NCBI GenBank assembly: GCA_021202175.1
Contig: JAJQDO010000249.1
Span: 1 to 33,360 of the forward strand
DNA from: Clostridiales bacterium
GTDB taxonomy: Bacteria; Bacillota; Clostridia; Lachnospirales; Lachnospiraceae
Length of the DNA stretch: 33,360 nucleotides
Reading direction: 5' to 3'
Program-made: the position numbers and the translations under genes
Part shown: in pieces, positions 9,849-29,900 of the stretch
How positions within the stretch are numbered: the stretch's first letter is position 1
Layout: every line of letters starts with the position of its first letter
The notes under the pieces: generated by a model
Databases searched by the model: none
Told to the model about the DNA's origin: nothing
The model's input: the letters and a program-made list of their open reading frames with translations, nothing else

Positions 9849-11780
9849 CTACTTCGCAACACCGTATATCATAACCTCCCCTGCCCTTTTGGAGCCGGTT
9901 TCTGCAGGTTTAATCTGTGTATAAGCATCTGTATTGGCAATAATAATCGGAATCGTGGTATCAAGCCCCGCTGCTCTGATTACCTCCAAATCTGCTACAA
10001 CAAGAACGTCCCCTGTTTTAATCTGTTGTCCGTTTTCCACTTTTACATTAAAACCTCTGCCTTCTAACGATACCGTATCCATTCCAATATGAATCAATAC
10101 CTCAGCGCCTTCTTTGGATGTAATACCAATCGCATGCCCTGTCGGATACACGGCGCTGATCACTCCATCGCATGGCGAACATATTGTACCATTTTCCGGC
10201 ACCACAGCAGCTCCCATTCCCAATAACCCGGTAGAAAAGGCGTCATCATTTACTTCTGATAATGGAATCAATCTGCCATCTGTCGGCATTTTTAATTCTA
10301 CATATGAAGTAGTTTCTTCCACCTTATCCATTCCGACACTCGCCACATCCGATTTGCTGTCATCCATATTGGATACATTTTTTTCGTCTGCATCTGTCTT
10401 TGCTCCATCCAGAAGCATATTATCATTAAAACCAAACAGGAAGGTCACGATAGCAGCTCCAAAATAAGCGATGGCACAGGCTATCAAAAATCCAACAAAT
10501 CCCTGTCCAATATATCCGGGCAATGTCAGAAGGCTGGTAGTAAGAAGCGTTGGAGCCCCTGCCCCACAAGCCGCAACGATAGCACCTGCGATACCGGAGA
10601 AAACAGCACCAATATAAAACGGTCTTTTATACTTCAATGTGATACCATAAATGGCTGGTTCGGTAATACCGGCAAGCACCGCCGAAATAGCAGCAGAACC
10701 GGAAAGCGATTTCAGCCCCGGATCTTTGGTTTTCAGGAAAACTCCCAAAGTTGCTCCCGCCTGTGCCATATTATGCGGTCCGGTAATAGTAAATAAGGTA
10801 TCTCTTCCATACTGTGCAATATTATTCATAACAATCGGTGCAAATCCCCAATGCAAACCAAACATTACGATGAATGGCCATAACATTCCCAATAAGAGGC
10901 CGGCTATAATTGGGTTGAAACCAACGAGACTGGTATAGCCTGAAGCCAGTAGATTACCAGCAGTATCTGAAATCGGCCCGATCACAAGATAGGTTGCCGG
11001 AACCATAATCGTAATACAGAGTAACGGAACCATAAAACTCTTTATCATTTCCGGCAAAACCTTCTTTAACCATTTTTCCACTTTGGAAAGAACATATACG
11101 GAAATAATAATCGGAATAACAGAAGAAGTATAACTTACCAATGTTACCGGAATCGTAAGAAATGTCAGTGCCTCTCCCGCGGAATACGCACTGGTGATAT
11201 CCGGATACAACAAAGCCGCTGCTATAGCTAACGCAAGAAATTCATTCGTCTTAAATTTTCTCGCCGCTGTAATAGCCAGAAACATCGGCAGATAATTAAA
11301 TACGCCATCCGCTGCCGCATAGAGAATTCGATAAGTTCCCATATCAGAAGTGAGCACACCCACCGTAGTACATAAAATCAGAAGACCTTTCAGCAGACCG
11401 GCTCCACACATTGCTGCCAGTATCGGAGCAAATATACCGGAAATCGTCTCCATAAATAAATTGACCGGATTCTTTTTTTCTCCATCTGCGCCTGCGTCCG
11501 TTCCGTCATCTCCCTCTGCCTGCCCTTTGATATCAGTATTTTTTAGCAAAGCCGCATAGACATCACCCACATGTGTTCCAATCACTACCTGTATCTGTCC
11601 ACCACTTTCAATCACGGAAATGACACCTTCCAGTTGCTCGAGCCTATTTTTCTCTACCTTCTTTTCATCCTTCACTTTGAAACGAAGACGAGTAGCACAA
11701 TGGAAAACAGAGATTACATTTTCTGCCCCACCCACATAAGCAGCAATAGACTTCGTTAAACTGTCATAATTTTTTGCCAT
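9849..11780 (-). CDS. Beta-glucoside-type PTS transporter, fused EIIBCA
   Basis: IIB domain (VISVFHCATRLRFKVKD), IIC membrane domain (GITEPAIYGITLKYKRPF), IIA domain (VLIHIGMDTVSLEGRGF). Confidence 0.95.
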   Translation of the reverse strand: MAKNYDSLTKSIAAYVGGAENVISVFHCATRLRFKVKDEKKVEKNRLEQLEGVISVIESGGQIQVVIGTHVGDVYAALLKNTDIKGQAEGDDGTDAGADGEKKNPVNLFMETISGIFAPILAAMCGAGLLKGLLILCTTVGVLTSDMGTYRILYAAADGVFNYLPMFLAITAARKFKTNEFLALAIAAALLYPDITSAYSAGEALTFLTIPVTLVSYTSSVIPIIISVYVLSKVEKWLKKVLPEMIKSFMVPLLCITIMVPATYLVIGPISDTAGNLLASGYTSLVGFNPIIAGLLLGMLWPFIVMFGLHWGFAPIVMNNIAQYGRDTLFTITGPHNMAQAGATLGVFLKTKDPGLKSLSGSAAISAVLAGITEPAIYGITLKYKRPFYIGAVFSGIAGAIVAACGAGAPTLLTTSLLTLPGYIGQGFVGFLIACAIAYFGAAIVTFLFGFNDNMLLDGAKTDADEKNVSNMDDSKSDVASVGMDKVEETTSYVELKMPTDGRLIPLSEVNDDAFSTGLLGMGAAVVPENGTICSPCDGVISAVYPTGHAIGITSKEGAEVLIHIGMDTVSLEGRGFNVKVENGQQIKTGDVLVVADLEVIRAAGLDTTIPIIIANTDAYTQIKPAETGSKRAGEVMIYGVAK

Positions 11781-11922
11781 GATTTTCCTCCTTATATTTT
11801 TGACAAGATTATTTTGTTATCTGTACTTTAGCATTGGAAAATACTGTTCCTCAATCCCCTTTCGATTTTTCTAAGGATTGATGCATAACTCTCATTATTG
11901 TCAAAAAAGTAGTGGTCATATT

Positions 11923-11937
11923 TGTGAAAATATCACA
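11923..11937. promoter_or_regulatory. Possible operator palindrome upstream of the PTS gene
   Basis: Perfect dyad TGTGA-AAATA-TCACA between the PTS start (11780) and the LacI gene. Candidate LacI-family or CRP-like site; no experimental basis. Confidence 0.3.
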
Positions 11938-12025
11938 TGGGTTTTAAAGAAAATTTAAAACAAAGACATATATACCGCATAAAAGTTCTCAAAAAGAAAC
12001 AGAATTATAATTCGCAATATGATAA

Positions 12026-12095
12026 TGATCAGAATGTCAAAAGCCATACATTTCCCTTGCTGGCTAATTTTCTGAATCTTTTGACATCCTGATCA
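12026..12095. repeat. Long inverted repeat in the lacI-PTS intergenic region
   Basis: TGATCAGAATGTCAAAAG (12026-12043) pairs with CTTTTGACATCCTGATCA (12078-12095) with one mismatch; inner AGCCA/TGGCT. Confidence 0.6.
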
Positions 12096-12175
12096 ATAAT
12101 AAAAATATATTCTCATCACTATTTATGCTTTCAACAAAAAAGACAAAATAAACTCTTAATATATTATAACCTCCC

Positions 12176-13264
12176 TCATGTATAGATATATTTCGTTTTA
12201 TCAAACACGCTGTTGCCTTCCTGCATCCGTGTTCTATAATAAGTTCTCGTAATTTCAGTTTCATTATCATCAATATGTCTCATCAAATGTTTCAACGCTG
12301 CCCGATGTCGTCTCGTATGCGTACCTTTCACAATCGTCAGTTTAAGTTCCGAAAGATTCACCGGAGGAACCGCGTCAAATCCTACCAGAGAAATATCATT
12401 CGGAATCCTTATATTCGATTCCAGAAGTGCCTGCACCACACCCAGTGAAATCAGCGAACTTTCCAACACATATGCCGTCGGTCTCCGACTTCCTTTTTCT
12501 ATATTGCGCAACATGTTCATATGAATCTCTTCATAATTTTTTCCCAACCGTATAATACAGTTTTGCGCGTCACCACAGTCCCGTCGTTTCATTTCTTCCA
12601 GAAAGCTCTCTCTTCTTTCTACAAAATTATAAATATCAATCGACTCCGCCAGGTAAACAATCTTACTGTGTCCCTTATCTACCAGATAATCTACACAGCG
12701 GCGGATTCCTTCCCTGTTATCAACCAGGTAACTGTCAATCCCCATATCATAAAAATTGTTGTCACCAACAACAATGGGTACAGAAAGTTTGGAAAGATAA
12801 AGCACATCATTCTGATTCATTTCTGCTCCCATCAAGTAAATTCCTCGTAAATGATGTCCTTTCCACTCTTCCATCCAGCAATCCAGATCATGCACCCTCT
12901 CATCATAGCGAACAAAAGCAAATTCATATCCTTCCTTTTCGACCATCTCCTTCAATTCATCCATGTATGATTCTGAGCCATTATTAGAAATATTAAATGT
13001 CTGCCGTCCCTTTGTTCTCCAATCAGAAATTTGTCGGTCAAATATTACCCCATGTTTAATATACTGCAACATAAGAATCAGCCCACGACGACTCTTCTTC
13101 GGTTTTCTTTCCCTGTCATAATATTCTTTTTCTTTTTGATTCACATAATCAAGTACTTTCCGCCTGGTTTCCCTGCTGACACCTTCCCGGTCATTCAAAA
13201 CCAGTGATACTGTCGCCTCCGACAGGTGAAGTTCTTTCGCTATATCCTTCGATTTTATTCTCAT
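12176..13264 (-). CDS. LacI-family transcriptional regulator
   Basis: MRIKSKDIAKELHLSEATVSLVLNDREGVSRETRRKVLDYV helix-turn-helix, then a periplasmic-binding-like sensor domain. Confidence 0.95.
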   Translation of the reverse strand: MRIKSKDIAKELHLSEATVSLVLNDREGVSRETRRKVLDYVNQKEKEYYDRERKPKKSRRGLILMLQYIKHGVIFDRQISDWRTKGRQTFNISNNGSESYMDELKEMVEKEGYEFAFVRYDERVHDLDCWMEEWKGHHLRGIYLMGAEMNQNDVLYLSKLSVPIVVGDNNFYDMGIDSYLVDNREGIRRCVDYLVDKGHSKIVYLAESIDIYNFVERRESFLEEMKRRDCGDAQNCIIRLGKNYEEIHMNMLRNIEKGSRRPTAYVLESSLISLGVVQALLESNIRIPNDISLVGFDAVPPVNLSELKLTIVKGTHTRRHRAALKHLMRHIDDNETEITRTYYRTRMQEGNSVFDKTKYIYT

Positions 13265-14890: not shown

Positions 14891-15187
14891 TTACTTGCGT
14901 TTAAACCCTGTTTCTATTTTCTTTAGCGTCTTTTCTGGCTGTTCTCGTAAATTTATCAGCGTAATAAACGCAGCTTCCCCATTCATATATTCTGAAATAG
15001 CAGCAAGTTTTTCAGCGGTATATCCCTGAATCATAACTGCATTATTTTTCCTATATGCCTTGTTGACAATCCAATCTTCAAACTCCGCGGCAATATCCGG
15101 ATTGCGATTGAATCTCTCTATCTTTTGCTGCACCAAAAGCGGCAACATAGGCGCTTTTGCATAATAATCTCCTATTATCTTACTCAT
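14891..15187 (-). CDS. Small 98-aa protein of unknown function, candidate immunity protein
   Basis: Start MSKIIGDYYAKAPMLPLLVQQKIERFNRN overlaps the preceding ORF stop by 8 nt (AAAAATGAGTAA), suggesting translational coupling. Confidence 0.7.
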   Translation of the reverse strand: MSKIIGDYYAKAPMLPLLVQQKIERFNRNPDIAAEFEDWIVNKAYRKNNAVMIQGYTAEKLAAISEYMNGEAAFITLINLREQPEKTLKKIETGFKRK

Positions 15188-15872
15188 TTTTCCACCCTGC
15201 TTCCTTAAATGACTTTGCATATGCCCTGGCCTCTGCTTCCACAAACTGGTCATAATAATCCATATAAAACAGATACGTTCCATCCGTCAACGGTATCGGA
15301 GATATGTAGTTTTCGAGATTTTTTCTATATAAATAGTCCGTGAAAGTCTCTAATTTTTCTGCCCGTTCATACTGATATGCATGGCGCATTTCGTGTGCAA
15401 GCGTATCAATTAATTCATTTGGATTATTCAGCAAAGCTCTGTTAATCTCCAATTTGCCTTCAGCATAGTTATAAGAACCGCAATCACAATCTCGTCCATC
15501 ATAATAATCGACTTTTGGATACTTCGCCAAATTCAAATCTTCCGCAAGCACATCCCGTAATTCTTCTACAGCAGTCTTTTTTTCCTTTTCCGTGCATTCT
15601 GTCCAAGATGAATCGTGAAACTTCTCAGCAAGCTCATTTTTCAGAGAAGTCTTTATGTCAAAATCGAAGGAATCTTCCTCAATTCCAAAAATGTTATCGA
15701 TCATCTGCTCTTCCGTTAATTCCTGGGATTCAAGCGGTGTAGCCATCAAATCATCCCAAAAGCGATTTGCTGATTCGACATCATCATTCAGAGGCTGTGA
15801 CCATTTTTCACTTTCCATCCTTTTCCTGTCGGAAACATCTGGTGACGATATGATTTCTGAAAATTTAATCAT
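15180..15872 (-). CDS. HExxH zincin-like metallopeptidase-domain protein, candidate second effector
   Basis: ELIDTLAHEMRHAYQYERAEK zinc-binding motif with downstream VEAEARAYAKSF; GGAGG ribosome-binding site before ATG 15872. Confidence 0.75.
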   Translation of the reverse strand: MIKFSEIISSPDVSDRKRMESEKWSQPLNDDVESANRFWDDLMATPLESQELTEEQMIDNIFGIEEDSFDFDIKTSLKNELAEKFHDSSWTECTEKEKKTAVEELRDVLAEDLNLAKYPKVDYYDGRDCDCGSYNYAEGKLEINRALLNNPNELIDTLAHEMRHAYQYERAEKLETFTDYLYRKNLENYISPIPLTDGTYLFYMDYYDQFVEAEARAYAKSFKEAGWKNE

Positions 15873-15889
15873 CTACAATCCCTCCGAAA

Positions 15890-16264
15890 TCAACTGAGAT
15901 ACTTATCTTTCCATTGCTTCTTATATTCGTAAGCATCTTCTGTCAAATCAGTATAATCAAAATCTGAATGCATGGTGCCATTTGCGTCAACGATCATTGT
16001 CATATTCGTCCACAGTTCGTCTTTTGACGCTTCGCGATCCTTAAACACGGCCTTGTCAACTTTCTTGAAACTATCTGCAATCTTCTTCTCCGATGTGCCA
16101 GGAATATCAAATCCATTGATATATTTCCCATTCTTCTGAATGTAAAAGGAATATGCATATGATGCCGCTCCGTATTCCAGGTAAATCACCAGCTTATCCC
16201 ATTCCGACGGAAGGCATCTACACACCTGATCAAATATAATCTGAAATGTTTTTTTCTTTATCAT
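15890..16264 (-). CDS. YezG/DUF600-family immunity protein
   Basis: MIKKKTFQIIFDQVCRCLPSEWDKLVIYLEYGAASYAYSFYIQKNGKYI...WTNMTMIVDANGTMHSDFDYTDLTEDAYEYKKQWKDKYL resembles YezG. Start lies 1 nt after the toxin stop. Confidence 0.8.
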   Translation of the reverse strand: MIKKKTFQIIFDQVCRCLPSEWDKLVIYLEYGAASYAYSFYIQKNGKYINGFDIPGTSEKKIADSFKKVDKAVFKDREASKDELWTNMTMIVDANGTMHSDFDYTDLTEDAYEYKKQWKDKYLS

Positions 16265-16265
16265 A

Positions 16266-16901
16266 TCAATCGTCTCCTCCATTTCTAAACACCCGGACCG
16301 AGGTATCTCCGTCAATACTGTAGGTCACCCTGATTTCAGAAGGTCTGTTAGAATCTCCTTTGTATTCCGGCTCCACTTTCATTCTCACATCCGCACCAGC
16401 ATCGACAGCCTTTGCCAATTCATTTTCCATTCTGGCATAATCGCCTCGGTTAAGTTTTTCATCCATCGCGACCAGGTTCTCCAATTTATCTGAACCACCA
16501 AAACGGTGTGCGATCAAATGACCCTTTTCGTCCCCGTCCAAATTGTCACCTTTTCCGACAACATCCATACTGTCCATACTTCGTTTTGATGATACTGCCT
16601 TCTGTAACTGTCCTTCTACTGATTTTGTTCTGCCGTTGCTATCAGTCTCATAATGGAATCCATCCACCTCAAAATTATTGTCCGGCAATAAATTGTCTCC
16701 TACACGATAAATTTTTCCACTATCATCCGTGTATATATCAGATGACAGATCCTGATCTTTCAATCTGGCTACTTCATTGTCCCAATATGTATTTGCTTCT
16801 TGAGGGGTCATTCCCTCTTGTGGCTGGATTTCGTGAAATCCCTGTCTTTCAGGAGTTTGCATTTTAATTTCTGTAAGGTCCGATGTTCTTATTTCACCCA
16901 T
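16266..16901 (-). CDS. DNA/RNA non-specific endonuclease toxin (Endonuclease_NS_2-like)
   Basis: KGHLIAHRFGGSDKLENLVAMDEKLNRGDYARMENELAKAV is the NucA-like/YeeF C-terminal nuclease pattern; followed by a YezG-like immunity gene. ATG overlaps the upstream stop (TGATG). Confidence 0.88.
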   Translation of the reverse strand: MGEIRTSDLTEIKMQTPERQGFHEIQPQEGMTPQEANTYWDNEVARLKDQDLSSDIYTDDSGKIYRVGDNLLPDNNFEVDGFHYETDSNGRTKSVEGQLQKAVSSKRSMDSMDVVGKGDNLDGDEKGHLIAHRFGGSDKLENLVAMDEKLNRGDYARMENELAKAVDAGADVRMKVEPEYKGDSNRPSEIRVTYSIDGDTSVRVFRNGGDD

Positions 16902-19900
16902 CAGAAGACTCTCCCTTCCTTTTTATAAACTTCCGTAAATCGGCAATGTAAATCGTTATATGCCGGATTTCTCTGTGCATGTTCATATAAAAGCAATCCC
17001 AGGGTCATATTAATCTGCCTGTTACTATAGTATTTAAGAGAGGGCTTTATTGCATCTACAACCGCGTGGGTCCATGACGATAATTCAGCAGATTTGTCCA
17101 CTGTTCCCATCACGATGTCTGCCTGTAACAAATCATATAAGAGTGGACGTAATTTATCCATCCCCTCCTTTGGCGCTGATACAAGATAGTCCATAAAATC
17201 AATCTTTACCGTGGTGTCAAGTTTTGATTGAAGGATTGCTCTTTGAAATCTTTTGATTTCATTTTTGTCTCCAAGCTGAAACAATGCTTTCTCCATGATA
17301 AAGTCCAGCAGTGATTCTGAAAGGTCTTCGGTACTCATTGTTTCAAACACATCTTCGTCCGGTGTGTATCTGTAAATAAGATTTCCATCTTCATACTTAT
17401 TTATCTTACAGAGGACCGGCTGTACCCATTCATTTTGGTATACTGCACCGACTCCGCAAGGCAGCTTTGCCAACTCCTGAATCTGATCATCATTTAAGTT
17501 TGCCGCTCTTCCTACCAGTTCCCGATCCTCCTGATCCGGCAACCGCATAATAATCTTCGTATTGGTATTTCTAATCGCCGCCATATCCAATAAGCCCGGA
17601 GCCTGATCAACAATTACAAAGCTCTCTCCGTAGGTTCTCATTTCCGCTATCGCATTGGAAATCATTTCGACGCTCTTTCCCAGAAGATTCCCAGATTCAG
17701 AAGATACGGCAGCTGATGTTTTTTTCAAAAGATTATGCGCTTCTTCCAGGACAGTGATATGTCGTAATTCCGAATTCATACCATCGGATGTAGACAGGCG
17801 ATATTCCTGAAGTTTCAAGACAAGAATGCCCATAATCAGAGATTTTGTTTCCGCGGATCCTACTCTGCTAAGATCTACAATAACATTCTGTTCAAACAAT
17901 TCTTCTGATGACAGCTCATCCGTCACAAAAACGGTTCCGTTAATACCATTTGTCAGGGACTGTAATCTGGTTAATAAAGAACCTTTATAAGCTCCTTTGT
18001 TTTCTGCGTCATACTCACTGGTCTCAATAATCGTTTTGATATTTCTGGCAACGTCCGAAAAGGAAGGATACAACTCCTCACCATATTTATTTTCGGAACG
18101 AATCATGTCCCATCCGCAATCCTCATAAGATTTTTCTATCGCCGCCTTGAGAACAGCAGGCATTGCCGCATACATCGGCCAGCAAACATTAAAGATTTCT
18201 ACCAGACGATCTAAATGTTCAAAAATATGCACGCCTTCCGGAAAGCTAAATGGATTTAATCGCAGCATCGGACTGAGATGGGGATTTGTTCCATAAACGA
18301 AAACATCCGGAGCCGAACCAAAAACATTTTTATATTCGCCTTTTGCCGGTTCCACTACGAGAAATACTATATTCTGGTGCGATACCTCGTCCAAAAGCTG
18401 ATAGACAGCATTACTCTTCCCGGAACCAGTGCTTCCTGTAATGAAAACATGCGCGGCCAGCGACTGCCTGGCTAAAGAAACCTCAATCCGTTCCTCATGA
18501 TTCATATGGAAGATTTTTCCGAGCCGCAATCCGTCTTTGCTATTTTGTCCACCATAAGTAACAACATTTCTTCCAAATTCCGCGCATTCCAGCACAGGGA
18601 ACCCAGCAACCGATTTCTGTGGAAAATTCAACGAATATGCGAGTTCTTTTCCTGACAAACTGGTGGTAGCGGTAACAATCGCAGGATAGGCATAAAAATC
18701 GGAACCGATCGCAGTTATTGCCGGACTCAAACCGAAGACAGGGTGTCTCAGTTCTCTTAAGTATCCATAGATTTCCTGTGCATCATCATTATCCGTTGTA
18801 TCTCCGCGCCACAAGTTGACCGCCGTCTGTGACATATAAGATTTCTCTCCTTGTGTCAGTGCCAGATAAGAATGGGCGGCATTGCTTGCAACGTTCTGGT
18901 CTTCGCTAATGAAATAGGCGGCAAAATCCCACATTCCCAGTGCAGTACTTTGCTCCAGACGTTTCATCTGATCTTCAAGGATTTCCAAGGTATGTTTGAT
19001 TGTGTAATTAGTAAATGACTGGGTAATCCCTTCATTTTTCCCAACCGTAGCACTGACATTGGAAGAGCGGGCAAAATTAGCCCCAAAATTACCGCCCAGA
19101 TTTACGCCTTTATATAGACCATCCGTTGTCGTTGCCGAATTAGAAACCGCTCTGCCAAGTGTATTCGCAACTGCACGGCCCGTCGTCTTTGCCAATGTCT
19201 GCGTAACAGAGGAAGCAGTACTGCTCGAGGCTGTATCTGCAACCGAACTGCCGGTCGAAGCCGTGTTTGTCATACTGCTTCCCTGCGAAAGAGATCCGCC
19301 TGCAGTCACATGTGTATCTGCCTTTGCCAACCAGGGTATGCCAACTTCTCCACCGGTTGAAACACTGGCATTCACTCCTACATTGGTACTTGTTCCTGTG
19401 GCATTTGCAATACTTTCATTTGTTCCTGCCGTATGCGAAGTTCCTTCGGTTACTGTAGTACCCGTCCCCGTGCTCGCAGAGGTTCCTGTTGAATCCGTAA
19501 TGGAAGATCCTTCTGAGTCCGTAACGCCGCTTGTATTCGCAACAGATGCATTTCTTCCTGATTGAACCCCCGCACTCACTCCCGCATTTAAACCAAAGGT
19601 TGCCATAGAATTCGTGGAATCAGATTGTGTATAGGTAAAGTTCGTCTGCCAGCCAGAATAAGGTGCCATTCCTGAATATAAATCTGCCAGATGCAGCTTT
19701 CGATCCTCGACATCTTTTACCGGCGTTGCCAGAAGAACAATCGTGTACTCCTTCTCCGCATCATCCGGGATAATTCCGTCTAAAAGTTTTTCAATCGTTT
19801 GACTGATAAATTTCTCTGACTTTTCTCCTGGAATATTGGAAGCACTCGCAATCGTATAGGAACGAATTTCATTCATACAGGGAATGACACCTTTTCCCTT

Positions 19901-20449
19901 ATCCTCTGTCCATTCTGCCCCGGGAAAATTACCTCGAATAGCCTCAAGCAAACGCTTTCTGTAATTATCCACATCCACGTTATCTCTGGTATTCTGTGTA
20001 TTGGTTACGGCTAAATATACGGATGTACCAACCATGGTCCGATGGAAAACCAGCGCGATATTACAATCTTCATCGGAAAGCACCTCATATACATTGACCA
20101 GTTTTTCCAGATTATTTTCTTTTTTGTCCGTCACCCATTTCGTTATATTGATATAACGAATGTTATACGCAGGCTTAAATGCCGAATCATATTCTGCATC
20201 TTTTTTCACTGGAACATAAAGTTCATTGATATGTTTTAAGTATTCATTATATATTTCAATACTTGCCGCACTAAGAAGTCTTTTTGTCAAAACTTCCGCT
20301 GCTTCATCATCCATGCCGGGAACTTCTGTCAGATACTCCTCTCTGCGTTTTTCCATTTCATGTAATTGTTCCGGGCTGAGAACAGATAGTTTGGCAATCG
20401 TGTCCGCTGCTTTACCACCCGCCCTCTTAATCCTGTTCTTAATCCCCAT
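16901..20449 (-). CDS. HerA/FtsK-like P-loop ATPase (DUF87-type) with a large Ser/Thr/Gly/Ala/Asn-rich insertion
   Basis: Walker A AHVFITGSTGSGKSNAVYQLLDE; Walker B HITVLEEAHNLLKK; FVIVDQAPGLLDMAAIRNTNTKIIMRLPDQEDRELVGRA as in HerA-like ATPases; low-complexity insertion at about aa 273-480. Confidence 0.9.
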   Translation of the reverse strand: MGIKNRIKRAGGKAADTIAKLSVLSPEQLHEMEKRREEYLTEVPGMDDEAAEVLTKRLLSAASIEIYNEYLKHINELYVPVKKDAEYDSAFKPAYNIRYINITKWVTDKKENNLEKLVNVYEVLSDEDCNIALVFHRTMVGTSVYLAVTNTQNTRDNVDVDNYRKRLLEAIRGNFPGAEWTEDKGKGVIPCMNEIRSYTIASASNIPGEKSEKFISQTIEKLLDGIIPDDAEKEYTIVLLATPVKDVEDRKLHLADLYSGMAPYSGWQTNFTYTQSDSTNSMATFGLNAGVSAGVQSGRNASVANTSGVTDSEGSSITDSTGTSASTGTGTTVTEGTSHTAGTNESIANATGTSTNVGVNASVSTGGEVGIPWLAKADTHVTAGGSLSQGSSMTNTASTGSSVADTASSSTASSVTQTLAKTTGRAVANTLGRAVSNSATTTDGLYKGVNLGGNFGANFARSSNVSATVGKNEGITQSFTNYTIKHTLEILEDQMKRLEQSTALGMWDFAAYFISEDQNVASNAAHSYLALTQGEKSYMSQTAVNLWRGDTTDNDDAQEIYGYLRELRHPVFGLSPAITAIGSDFYAYPAIVTATTSLSGKELAYSLNFPQKSVAGFPVLECAEFGRNVVTYGGQNSKDGLRLGKIFHMNHEERIEVSLARQSLAAHVFITGSTGSGKSNAVYQLLDEVSHQNIVFLVVEPAKGEYKNVFGSAPDVFVYGTNPHLSPMLRLNPFSFPEGVHIFEHLDRLVEIFNVCWPMYAAMPAVLKAAIEKSYEDCGWDMIRSENKYGEELYPSFSDVARNIKTIIETSEYDAENKGAYKGSLLTRLQSLTNGINGTVFVTDELSSEELFEQNVIVDLSRVGSAETKSLIMGILVLKLQEYRLSTSDGMNSELRHITVLEEAHNLLKKTSAAVSSESGNLLGKSVEMISNAIAEMRTYGESFVIVDQAPGLLDMAAIRNTNTKIIMRLPDQEDRELVGRAANLNDDQIQELAKLPCGVGAVYQNEWVQPVLCKINKYEDGNLIYRYTPDEDVFETMSTEDLSESLLDFIMEKALFQLGDKNEIKRFQRAILQSKLDTTVKIDFMDYLVSAPKEGMDKLRPLLYDLLQADIVMGTVDKSAELSSWTHAVVDAIKPSLKYYSNRQINMTLGLLLYEHAQRNPAYNDLHCRFTEVYKKEGRVF

Positions 20450-20466
20450 TTAAATTCCCTCTCATT

Positions 20467-20952
20467 TTACGCATATACCTTCCAATCCATCATTGCGTCA
20501 AGCTTGACTGTATAGTTCTTTAACTTTTCCTGCCTTTCCATAAGTTCCTCTATCTGTTTTGTTAACGTTTGAATCTTCTTCGCCTGTTTAGACAATTCAG
20601 GGCTGTATTCCACAATATTGGCTCTGATTTCATCCAACAAACTTTCAATCCACTGATATGCGCTTTCCCTGTGGCTTACTTCGATCGCATCATACCTGTT
20701 TTTTACATCTTCACTCATATGCTCATTATAGGTATTTGCAAGCTTTTCAAGATTAAGATGATTGGAATGCCATAAAACAAATTCCCCAAATGCCAACTTT
20801 CTCTCAAACTCTTCCTTACGGAAAATAGATTCCGCATGGCTTACATCAAAGGTCAGTTTCTGATATTCAATAATAATTTTTTCAAGCTCATCACGGCGAT
20901 CTGCCGTTAAAACATCGGAACCAGTTACAATCTCTGCCAGTACTCTTCGCAA
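20467..20952 (-). CDS. Coiled-coil protein, in-frame continuation of the upstream dynamin-like ORF
   Basis: 161-aa ORF with TTG as its only upstream start; separated from the dynamin ORF by TAA plus 8 sense codons in the same frame. Heptad-like KQAKKIQTLTKQIEELMERQEKL. Confidence 0.7.
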   Translation of the reverse strand: MRRVLAEIVTGSDVLTADRRDELEKIIIEYQKLTFDVSHAESIFRKEEFERKLAFGEFVLWHSNHLNLEKLANTYNEHMSEDVKNRYDAIEVSHRESAYQWIESLLDEIRANIVEYSPELSKQAKKIQTLTKQIEELMERQEKLKNYTVKLDAMMDWKVYA

Positions 20953-20976
20953 TGCCTCTGTATTCGAAGTCCAGTA

Positions 20977-23031
20977 TTACTGTGATCCCTGATCCATGGA
21001 TTCAAAAATATCCAATAGTCTTTTCTTATATTTTTCCCTTGCATAATCTGTAAGCTGATCTGCCACCTTTCTGTCAACAGCTTTTCGAACCTCATTTTTC
21101 GCTTTTCTGTCATCAGAGGCAATACTTATATCAGCACCAAGCTCTGCAAAAGCATTCCCAACCGTATCAAAACTCTTTTCTTTCATGGCTTTCGTCATAT
21201 GCTGCAGAAAATTCTGTCCGACCGCACTGCGACTTTCTTTGGTCTTCTCCACATGTTTGTCAAAGTCCATCTCAGCTTCGACTTCTTCTGTCATCTCTTC
21301 TTCATGCCGTCTCAAACTCTCCAAAGAAAATGTCTCATCTGCCCCGGAAATGAACTGCTGCATATATCCTTCATATCCAGATTGGTACTCTGCCTTTTTT
21401 TCTTCCGAACCATTCTCCAATTGTTCCAGGAGCAATCGCTTATCCATTTCAAGTTTCTCTTTTATCATCTCTCTGGTTTCTGCAGTCTCTCGTTTCGTCT
21501 CATCAATGCATTCCTGCGTCAATTCGATGATCCGATACAAAAACAGCTGCGATTGGTAGCACTTATTATATGCCGAATATTTGCCCGCAAATGTATCAAT
21601 TTCCGTTTCAACACTAAACAATCCACTGTTTGCATACACCAGATTTTGTTCGTTTTGGGCAGCACAATCCGACCTCTCTTTTATCTGTGACGGCATGATA
21701 TTATAAGTGTATAGCTGTTTGTATCTGCGATTTTTCGGATCTCTGTATTTTCTTTCCTGATCTTCAAATGTTTCATCATAGAAATCATCCAGAAACTCGC
21801 CATTATTCTTAGAACCAAGACCGAGAATAGAAGAAACATAGAAAATCCCGCCAGAATAAAGATTTCTGGGAATAGCCTGTCTCAAAACCTGCTTTTCTTC
21901 TTCTGCACTGGATTCTTTACGATTCAAATCATTCTTATCCGCTTTATTTACAACGATCATGGTAAAGCGACTATCCAATTCATCAAGTTCACTAATCATT
22001 TTGTACAGGTTCTCATTATCTGTACTGTCAAGCGTATCCGGTGTCGCAAGAAAGATTGGCAGTCCATTGGTCATGTTTGCCATCGCTTCTTTTAAAACCT
22101 GCAAGTGCTTAGCGTTTGAAGCCGAATTAGACCCAGGTGTATCAAAAATCACGAACGGATGCTGTGATTTAGCCAATACTCCATTAACAAAAGGAATTTC
22201 TATTTCAATCAAATCAGAAATACCGTTATCCTCAACATCATTTTCGTAATCATTGATAATACTGATCGATTTATTCATTCGATGCTCGATACTTTCTCCC
22301 GCCATCGATACAACTTGTTCGTTAAGCATATTGGATAAAGTATTTGGCATCTGTAAATCCTCGAAATAAGTATTGCTGGCTGTCATAATTAAAGAAATCA
22401 GCTGTCCACGATAGTTTAACTTAACCGAAGCACGGTCTGAAAATTTAGATCTGGCTATTTTATAAACTTTGGCTGTAACCGGATTACTCCCATTCGGCAA
22501 AATCTCACTACCAATCAGGGCATTGATAAATGTCGATTTGCCCGAACTATAATTACCCATGACACAAACAGGAACAACATCACTGGACGCATCAGCAAAT
22601 CTGTTCAAATCCCGTTCAATTCTTTCACGATCTGCACTCTGTAAAATCAGTGGACTCATCTCCTGAAATAAAGATTTCACTTCCGGCAGAATGTCCCTTG
22701 CATTTTCAAGGTATACATTTGAACATACCGGCTTCACCGTCGCTTCATATCCTCCTGCCTTGCATACGGACTCCAATTCACTGAATTCGTCTGCGGATCC
22801 TTCAAAATATAACTCTATCGTTTCTCCGTCTACTTGATAATCTTCCACCATCTGCAAAACAATCTGTTTCACTTTAAAAGGGAAGAATCCTTCTGTTAAG
22901 TCTTTGCTCAGAAGTTTTGTTGCCTTATGATCCGCCAGATTAATTTCGAGCCATGCTGAACTGTCATCATCCCATTGCTGATATCTAATTTGTTTCTTAT
23001 ATGGATTACTGATGATTTTTAAACGTGCCAT
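20977..23031 (-). CDS. Dynamin-like GTPase
   Basis: VCVMGNYSSGKSTFINALIGSEILPNGSNPVTAKVYKI (G1 plus switch region), FVIFDTPGSNSASN (G3), TMIVVNKADKND (G4); long alpha-helical C-terminal part. Confidence 0.93.
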   Translation of the reverse strand: MARLKIISNPYKKQIRYQQWDDDSSAWLEINLADHKATKLLSKDLTEGFFPFKVKQIVLQMVEDYQVDGETIELYFEGSADEFSELESVCKAGGYEATVKPVCSNVYLENARDILPEVKSLFQEMSPLILQSADRERIERDLNRFADASSDVVPVCVMGNYSSGKSTFINALIGSEILPNGSNPVTAKVYKIARSKFSDRASVKLNYRGQLISLIMTASNTYFEDLQMPNTLSNMLNEQVVSMAGESIEHRMNKSISIINDYENDVEDNGISDLIEIEIPFVNGVLAKSQHPFVIFDTPGSNSASNAKHLQVLKEAMANMTNGLPIFLATPDTLDSTDNENLYKMISELDELDSRFTMIVVNKADKNDLNRKESSAEEEKQVLRQAIPRNLYSGGIFYVSSILGLGSKNNGEFLDDFYDETFEDQERKYRDPKNRRYKQLYTYNIMPSQIKERSDCAAQNEQNLVYANSGLFSVETEIDTFAGKYSAYNKCYQSQLFLYRIIELTQECIDETKRETAETREMIKEKLEMDKRLLLEQLENGSEEKKAEYQSGYEGYMQQFISGADETFSLESLRRHEEEMTEEVEAEMDFDKHVEKTKESRSAVGQNFLQHMTKAMKEKSFDTVGNAFAELGADISIASDDRKAKNEVRKAVDRKVADQLTDYAREKYKKRLLDIFESMDQGSQ

Positions 23032-27987: not shown

Positions 27988-29568
27988 TCACACCACTGCT
28001 TCAACCAACATCTTATCGCCCATTACAATCTCTTTTAGCCCTGGTTCCTTGTTTTTATTAAAATTAAAGCTTAGCATATACCCTTTTTTCATATGAAAAT
28101 AGTCAAGATACGCGGAAAGTTGTTTTTCTCCGCGTTCATTATACGCATTTCCCCGCCATATTTTCAGTTCCAGAATATTTTGCTCCCCCTGATAGTATAT
28201 CACCAGGTCCATCCGCTCACTATTTCTGGTCTGCGGTTCAATGCTGTAATTTCCCACGCCGTTAATGATTGGTTTAAGGAACAAAAGGAAATACTTTCTT
28301 CCGACATTCTCCAAAAACGCCTCGTCTTCCTGACTATATAATTCTTCGAATGCCTCGACAAACTTTTCCAAAATCCGTCTAATATCCAAATGTCCTCCGA
28401 TAAAGAATTGATTTCGTTCTCTTTCGCCTGCAGCATACATCTTACTTGTCACAAATTCTTCCGCGATAAAATTATTATAGAGAACAGCTTCAAAAATCCG
28501 ATTGGAAATCACAGCCCGATCGCCTTCATTGCGGATGAATCCGAACATTACGGCATCCTTTATATAAGGACTTGTCGCCACAAACGGTATCGACCTTCCA
28601 TTAAACAACAGTTCATAAATCATCGTCCGCAGTTCCGGATAACGCTGCAACTTCTCCATCAAAGATTCATATAAGGGATTATCTTCTCTGATCAGTCTCT
28701 TCTCTGCTTCATAAAAGCCTTCTTTCGTCCAGGCACTGCTTTTGTCCGGGAACTCCTCGCTTCCTGAAATTTTTTCATCCAGCAGTTTACAAATGCGTGA
28801 AACCAGCACCGGATATCCTGACGTATAATCATAGATTAGTTGCGATATCTCATCGATATGCATCCCTGTATGATAATCTTCTTCATATTCTTTAAGCATA
28901 TTGGCGATATCTTCCGTCGAAAAGCTCATATCTACGTCAAAATCTGAGGCAATATTCCAAGGGCTGTTGGCTTTATGCTCCTCATCCGGTCGTATTTTTC
29001 TTTTCATATTGCGTACATCGTAAACGCCTGCAAGAATTACAGACTGAAAAGTAGCGACATCCGGTCTTTTTAGATAATAAGCCCGCAACTGTGCCAGAAA
29101 ATCTAAAAATACCTGATTATTCGTTGCAGTATCTACCTCATCGATGAGCAAGACGATTTTTCTGTCTGTTTTTCCACACCACATTTTCAAGATTCTGAAC
29201 AAATCCTGTAAAGTGTACTTATCTGCTGGTTTCTTTCCTAATTCTTCTATCTTCTCTTGAATCCCCTCTGGAAAGGCTGGCACATTATCTAGGAGTTCCA
29301 TCGCAAACGCCCTTGTAAAGGTATGAACATCTTTAAAACAATCTGCATCCAATGTCTGAAAATCAAGGCTCACCACTTCATATTCATCTTTAAGATATCG
29401 CGCAAGTGCCCGCAACGTCGTAGTCTTTCCATATTGTCTGGCACGATTGATGGTAAAATATTCGCCAAAATCCACCATCTTGCGGATATCCTCTAATCTG
29501 GAGTCCAAATTTACCATATAATGTCGGTTCGGATCACAGGTGCCTGTCACATTAAATCTTTTTGTCAT
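27988..29568 (-). CDS. AAA-ATPase-like protein with C-terminal PD-(D/E)XK nuclease-like domain
   Basis: YFTINRARQYGKTTTLRALARYL, KIVLLIDEVDTATN, C-terminal NSERMDLVIYYQGEQNILELKIWRG. Confidence 0.88.
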   Translation of the reverse strand: MTKRFNVTGTCDPNRHYMVNLDSRLEDIRKMVDFGEYFTINRARQYGKTTTLRALARYLKDEYEVVSLDFQTLDADCFKDVHTFTRAFAMELLDNVPAFPEGIQEKIEELGKKPADKYTLQDLFRILKMWCGKTDRKIVLLIDEVDTATNNQVFLDFLAQLRAYYLKRPDVATFQSVILAGVYDVRNMKRKIRPDEEHKANSPWNIASDFDVDMSFSTEDIANMLKEYEEDYHTGMHIDEISQLIYDYTSGYPVLVSRICKLLDEKISGSEEFPDKSSAWTKEGFYEAEKRLIREDNPLYESLMEKLQRYPELRTMIYELLFNGRSIPFVATSPYIKDAVMFGFIRNEGDRAVISNRIFEAVLYNNFIAEEFVTSKMYAAGERERNQFFIGGHLDIRRILEKFVEAFEELYSQEDEAFLENVGRKYFLLFLKPIINGVGNYSIEPQTRNSERMDLVIYYQGEQNILELKIWRGNAYNERGEKQLSAYLDYFHMKKGYMLSFNFNKNKEPGLKEIVMGDKMLVEAVV

Positions 29569-29678
29569 CCAATTTAACCCCCTTTTGAACAATCCTTACC
29601 TCGGTTCCCACTACACAAAATATCAGTTTATCCTTAGTCATAGTATAACACACCATCTTGTTTTGAGAAACAAAAAAA

Positions 29679-29698
29679 GAACGCGCCTTAGCACGTCC
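29679..29698 (-). terminator. Intrinsic terminator of the rubredoxin gene
   Basis: Minus RNA GGACGUGC-UAAG-GCGCGUUC followed by UUUUUUUG; the two non-canonical pairs are G-U only on the minus strand. Confidence 0.8.
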
Positions 29699-29738
29699 TT
29701 TTTCTTTAAATAATATATGATCTGTATATCGTTTACTC

Positions 29739-29900
29739 TTAAGCCACACTAAACTGGTCTTTACCAACACCACAGAGAGGACATTCCCAATCGTCTGGAA
29801 GGTCTTCCCACTTTGTACCCGGCTCGATTCCGTTATCTGGATCACCAAGGGCTTCGTCATATTCATAACCACAAACATCGCAGATATATTTCATCTTCAT
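29739..29900 (-). CDS. Rubredoxin
   Basis: Manual translation [53 protein letters not shown] with both CxxC knuckles; absent from the ORF track because it is 53 aa. Confidence 0.97.

Follow-up and report, generated by a model that had tools for sequence, protein, structure and literature searches.

An in-frame stop codon in a dynamin-like gene of a bacterial dynamin-HerA-tagged toxin-immunity module

The window, by which we mean the whole stretch of 33,360 nucleotides analysed here (contig JAJQDO010000249.1 from a Clostridiales bacterium), contains a dynamin-like gene whose reading frame is broken by a TAA codon. A HerA-type ATPase, a nuclease toxin and a putative immunity protein are encoded after it on the same strand. 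The features of this region are listed below with their positions in the window.

20977..23031, minus strand: dynamin-like gene before the stop, 684 aa, with an NPY-motif N-terminal region, a GTPase domain and most of the stalk (Pfam Dynamin_N 2.2e-20, and homologues)
20977..20979, minus strand: in-frame TAA, a stop without counterpart in 26/26 intact homologues
20467..20976, minus strand: dynamin-like gene after the stop, 169 codons (tblastn 8e-16 to locus L002, HMM 1.8e-60, model of the homologue at locus L020)
16901..20449, minus strand: HerA/DUF87-type ATPase, 1182 aa, intact, with a Ser/Thr/Gly-rich insert (Pfam DUF87 1.6e-10; HerA fold 4d2i, E 4e-14)
16266..16901, minus strand: nuclease toxin gene, Endonuclea_NS_2 (Pfam 1.8e-31), whose start overlaps the HerA stop
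16743..16901, minus strand: N-terminal tag region of the toxin, common to toxins of the module (alignment A4)
15890..16315, minus strand: YezG-like immunity gene (Pfam 8e-10)
15180..15872, minus strand: second effector-like gene, metallopeptidase-like (weak DUF6782 match, just below the Pfam cut-off)
14891..15187, minus strand: partner of the second effector-like gene, about 98 aa, start read from the sequence

The ATG-started minus-strand ORF that runs from 23031 to 20977 encodes 684 amino acids and ends in ESMDQGSQ before the TAA. Its P-loop (GNYSSGKST) and Dynamin_N GTPase domain identify the product as a bacterial dynamin-like protein, and no hydrophobic paddle is seen in it by simple hydropathy. 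Beyond the stop the same frame reads YWTSNTEALRRVLAEIVTGSDVLTADRRDELEKIII... and stays open for 169 sense codons up to a closing TAA at 20467-20469, exactly as a preliminary description of this DNA had stated; counted as a separate ORF, this second part has 161 amino acids. An open run of 168 codons would be expected by chance at the local base composition with a probability of only about 1e-6. The G+C content at third codon positions (GC3) is similar on either side of the stop (0.38 and 0.40), and no second lesion was found in the dynamin frame beyond the TAA.

Homologues show whether these ORFs belong to a single gene. Used as the sole query against genome contigs, the window protein retrieved no relative, and an alignment-based search was needed; a read-through translation, in which X marks the stop, served for searching and aligning only. 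Searches at the family, order and class levels, together with GTDB contigs, yielded 26 intact dynamins for alignment, which come from Lachnospiraceae, other Bacillota, Actinomycetota (Coriobacteriia and Bifidobacterium) and one Bacteroidales bin. A search for a same-species or otherwise close copy found none, the genus having only a 28% homologue. Plasmid searches returned one distant dynamin and no DNA match, and phage records returned nothing.

All 26 intact homologues are single proteins of 807-875 aa that continue without a gap across the junction; the column of the stop is occupied by an amino acid in each of them. A tryptophan two residues after this position is present in 23 of them. 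From its first residue onward the 3' segment shows homology to the C-terminus of intact dynamins, both by tblastn to L002 and by profile. Because the homologues run on through the junction and never have a stop there, the two ORFs are one interrupted gene. The preliminary description had proposed that an ancestral protein of some 850 aa was interrupted at CAG-TAA-TAC and had named a continuous homologous protein across this point as the mark of an interruption, which is the pattern found in 26/26. Among the causes that it listed, a nonsense mutation or a sequence error is favoured, whereas a recurrent split or recoding is not supported, since this column holds a stop in none of the homologues. 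Annotation of the 684-aa and 161-aa ORFs as two proteins should be avoided.

The second part also has a poor start. A TTG at 20952, located 24 nt past the stop, is the only candidate near the beginning of the 3' part, and a GAGG ends 2 nt before it (ACAGAGGCA-TTG). The suspicion that this spacing is too close for a good ribosome-binding site was borne out: the predicted anti-Shine-Dalgarno pairing at a usable spacing is -3.0 kcal/mol, compared with -8.8 for the next gene (HerA), and just one of 16 other window starts compared has weaker pairing. No good start with a ribosome-binding site was thus found for the 3' part.

The AlphaFold model of the intact homologue at L020 (mean pLDDT 84.5) is a BDLP-like dynamin. 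Its top match in the PDB is 2j69 (E = 3e-13, 811 columns) with a TM-score of about 0.3, a low value that we attribute to the protein being long and flexible, and it also matches 7zw6 and 6j72 across most of the chain. Like the BDLP-type dynamins (Nostoc BDLP1, SynDLP and IniA), the module dynamin has a Dynamin_N GTPase domain and a long helical stalk; it differs from them in having an extra N-terminal NPY-motif region and in sharing an operon with HerA and a toxin, and the window copy differs further in being interrupted. The stop maps to residue 686 of the L020 protein, which is inside a stalk helix at 621-704. Truncation at this point would remove the end of that helix plus two further helices (760-808 and 810-846). 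In the model the helical stalk has returning C-terminal helices, and the equivalent part of the window protein lies past the stop. Without the helix end and the last two long helices, a truncated product would still have its GTPase domain but is probably defective, and analogy with known dynamins predicts that a stalk shortened in this way should be disabled.

The interrupted gene belongs to a conserved module of dynamin, HerA, tagged toxin and immunity gene that occurs at window positions 14891-23031 and at loci L018-L022, L045-L066 and L124-L128. The dynamin is followed directly by a HerA/DUF87 gene in the window and in 22/22 homologous loci (L045-L066), where the HerA protein has 1121-1261 aa when complete. 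Across 26 loci the HerA proteins are 50-63% identical. A GSTGSGKS Walker motif is invariant in nearly all of them and, together with a DUF87 match above the cut-off, identifies the family as HerA; its fold matches are 4d2i, 8wiv and 8uae. The structural model of HerA is too weak beyond the ATPase domain for its N-terminal region to be read. Residues of about 265-480 (window 18900-19700) form a long, low-confidence Ser/Thr/Gly-rich insert whose length varies between loci.

Toxin-like and immunity-like genes are generally next after HerA where the contig continues. The toxin domains of the module include Endonuclea_NS_2 and colicin-DNase/WHH types, and the immunity types predicted from sequence directly downstream of the toxin include YezG-like and DUF6985 proteins. 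The metallopeptidase-like second effector and its partner of 96-99 aa are present in many loci, including the window. The HerA family was found in 35 of the 397 Lachnospiraceae-family genomes searched, and most of 20 distant loci examined have at least one dynamin-type GTPase gene adjoining HerA. The module also occurs in cultured species (Ruminococcus flavefaciens and Bifidobacterium ruminantium) and can therefore be tested. No paper on a dynamin-HerA-toxin module was found in the open-licence literature searched. In two IMG/VR contigs, L128 (1002-7035) and L129 (884-3780), the module lies beside several large genes that read as serine recombinase-like, which suggests that it may move on integrative elements.

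Many toxins of the module begin with a common tag of about 50 residues (consensus ENFKxIKPENGMTxxEAxxFW). The tag fronts unrelated toxin domains, and this combination of a conserved N-terminus with a variable C-terminal toxin is characteristic of polymorphic toxins. A profile of the tag, whose seed contained one wrong pick (an L126 transporter), finds module toxins outside the seed in L049, L124, L125, L128 and L169 (E from 4e-12 to 6e-5) and no protein outside modules below E = 1. The tag is significant once in the genome of the window. Another group of toxins has FDPDKRI-type repeats in its place. The tag is likely a recruitment signal. As in the polymorphic toxin systems outlined in the excerpted text of PMC3482391, a swappable nuclease domain stands behind a conserved N-terminal region and is followed by an immunity gene, whereas the tag and the dynamin-HerA pair correspond to none of the trafficking modes given in that excerpt. 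Type VIIb secretion was considered and rejected: Pfam has no match to an LXG/WXG domain on the module toxins and none to EssC, and FtsK_SpoIIIE falls below the cut-off whereas DUF87 lies above it.

An intact dynamin would be one component of this module. The gene order and the tag are observed. Together with the immunity genes, the resemblance of the ATPase to a pump and the example of LeoABC, the tag leads us to infer that the module would most likely serve to deploy nuclease toxins against other cells nearby, with the HerA ATPase handling the tagged toxin and the dynamin working on the membrane. According to the portion of PMC4159319 available, the dynamins of LeoABC in enterotoxigenic E. 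coli promote vesicle-linked toxin release; this portion describes no HerA or tagged toxin-immunity pair. In its full form the proposal is of an undescribed toxin-deployment system in anaerobic gut and rumen bacteria, in which the tag of about 50 residues would lead toxins to a HerA-type pump, the dynamin would remodel the membrane, and an interrupted dynamin would stop delivery without loss of immunity. We offer this version tentatively, as a rather doubtful one. If the module does export toxins, it would constitute a new route of toxin delivery among gut and rumen bacteria.

The module could instead be an internal anti-phage or abortive-infection system that exports nothing, which is quite possible although it falls short of an even chance. 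Simple hydropathy reveals no clear transmembrane or signal segment in any module component, and internal defence is for this reason a serious rival. The dynamin weakly matches the LeoA model in a defence library, and the ATPase resembles the HerA of anti-phage complexes. SIR2-HerA and DUF4297-HerA systems have the same HerA-type ATPase domain, but the HerA of the module is partnered by a dynamin, a tagged toxin and an immunity protein, and it has a long N-terminal region and the Ser/Thr/Gly-rich insert. No SIR2 or DUF4297 partner appears among the scanned module proteins. Variable toxins that share one N-terminal tag and lie beside variable immunity genes are, moreover, the usual layout of exported polymorphic toxins.

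Other dynamins of the module are interrupted as well. A homologue from Coriobacteriia (L055, 9956-12568) has a TGA at codon 100, the L065 dynamin (9992-12539) has a frameshift near residue 265, and a more distant module dynamin (L171, 642-3215) has a TAA at codon 409, and its relatives L172 and L173 show no break there. These interruptions lie at unrelated places, as would fit sporadic loss or errors in the sequence but not a programmed site. No interruption of HerA occurs among the close homologues (0/28, compared with about 3/30 for the dynamin), a difference that is suggestive but not significant by our estimate. Two short HerA ORFs were rejected as nonsense cases, one (L175) with its N-terminal part missing and the other (L181) running off the contig end. 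In four distant HerA loci (L169, L184, L185 and L186) the NPY-motif region of the dynamin forms, wholly or in part, a gene of its own with one to three GTPase genes next to it, which shows that evolution does split dynamins in another way.

At positions conserved in at least 60% of the homologues, the window protein keeps 81% of the conserved residues before the stop and 86% after it, and these values fall inside the range among intact relatives (37-95% after the stop). This conservation, the similar GC3 and the single lesion imply that the interruption is recent, or is absent from the real cell, or that the 3' part is still translated. The first of these is the probable one: a single, recent, lineage-specific nonsense mutation in one dynamin gene, within a toxin-deploying dynamin-HerA-tagged toxin-immunity module. 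A gene for a protein of about 854 aa would have acquired one nonsense codon that no homologue shares, much as in bacterial pseudogenes with a single in-frame stop that are otherwise intact and have continuous homologues. Translation would terminate at residue 684, leaving the GTPase domain without the C-terminal stalk helices, and the truncated dynamin would probably be defective, as the model and known dynamins suggest. The 3' part would be translated poorly at best, and the downstream HerA, toxin and immunity genes would remain intact. The stop itself, present in one draft genome, looks like an ordinary event, either a solitary nonsense codon or a mistake of assembly. It matters mainly for annotation and as a lead to a module that deserves its own study.

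The main rival to a nonsense mutation is an error in the consensus or a mixed-strain call, such that the stop is absent from the living cell. We consider this unlikely. The assembly is a fragmented, probably metagenome-derived draft of 357 contigs, some of the interrupted homologues (L055) also sit in metagenome bins, and one lone substitution-type difference in an otherwise perfect frame with normal conservation after the stop is what such an error would leave. However, substitution errors in the consensus are uncommon for covered assemblies, and no further broken gene came to notice in those window genes that were checked.

A functional two-chain dynamin, in which both parts are made and assemble after reinitiation at the TTG, is improbable. 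Intact post-stop sequence would also fit a fragment that is still translated, since the 3' part shows the same degree of conservation as in intact relatives, and the 24-nt gap may be short enough for coupled reinitiation. A genuine dynamin in two chains is known from LeoC/LeoB, whose split is conserved across bacteria and lies within the GTPase domain, according to the available portion of PMC4159319; the split in the window is instead unique and in the stalk, where it breaks a helix and not a domain border. The TTG start is weak, and no homologue is split at the same place.

Programmed readthrough of the TAA to give a minority of full-length protein was rejected as very improbable: the frame after the stop is open and conserved, but the stop occurs in this genome alone, a T directly after TAA makes for strong termination, and folding compared with shuffles reveals no stable RNA structure around the stop, the flanking RNA being less structured than its shuffles (z +1.8). 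Elsewhere in the window (27988-29878), an ORF for an AAA_35-type ATPase begins with TTG and overlaps a short ORF that lies upstream in a different frame, which possibly reflects a wrong start or a frameshift.
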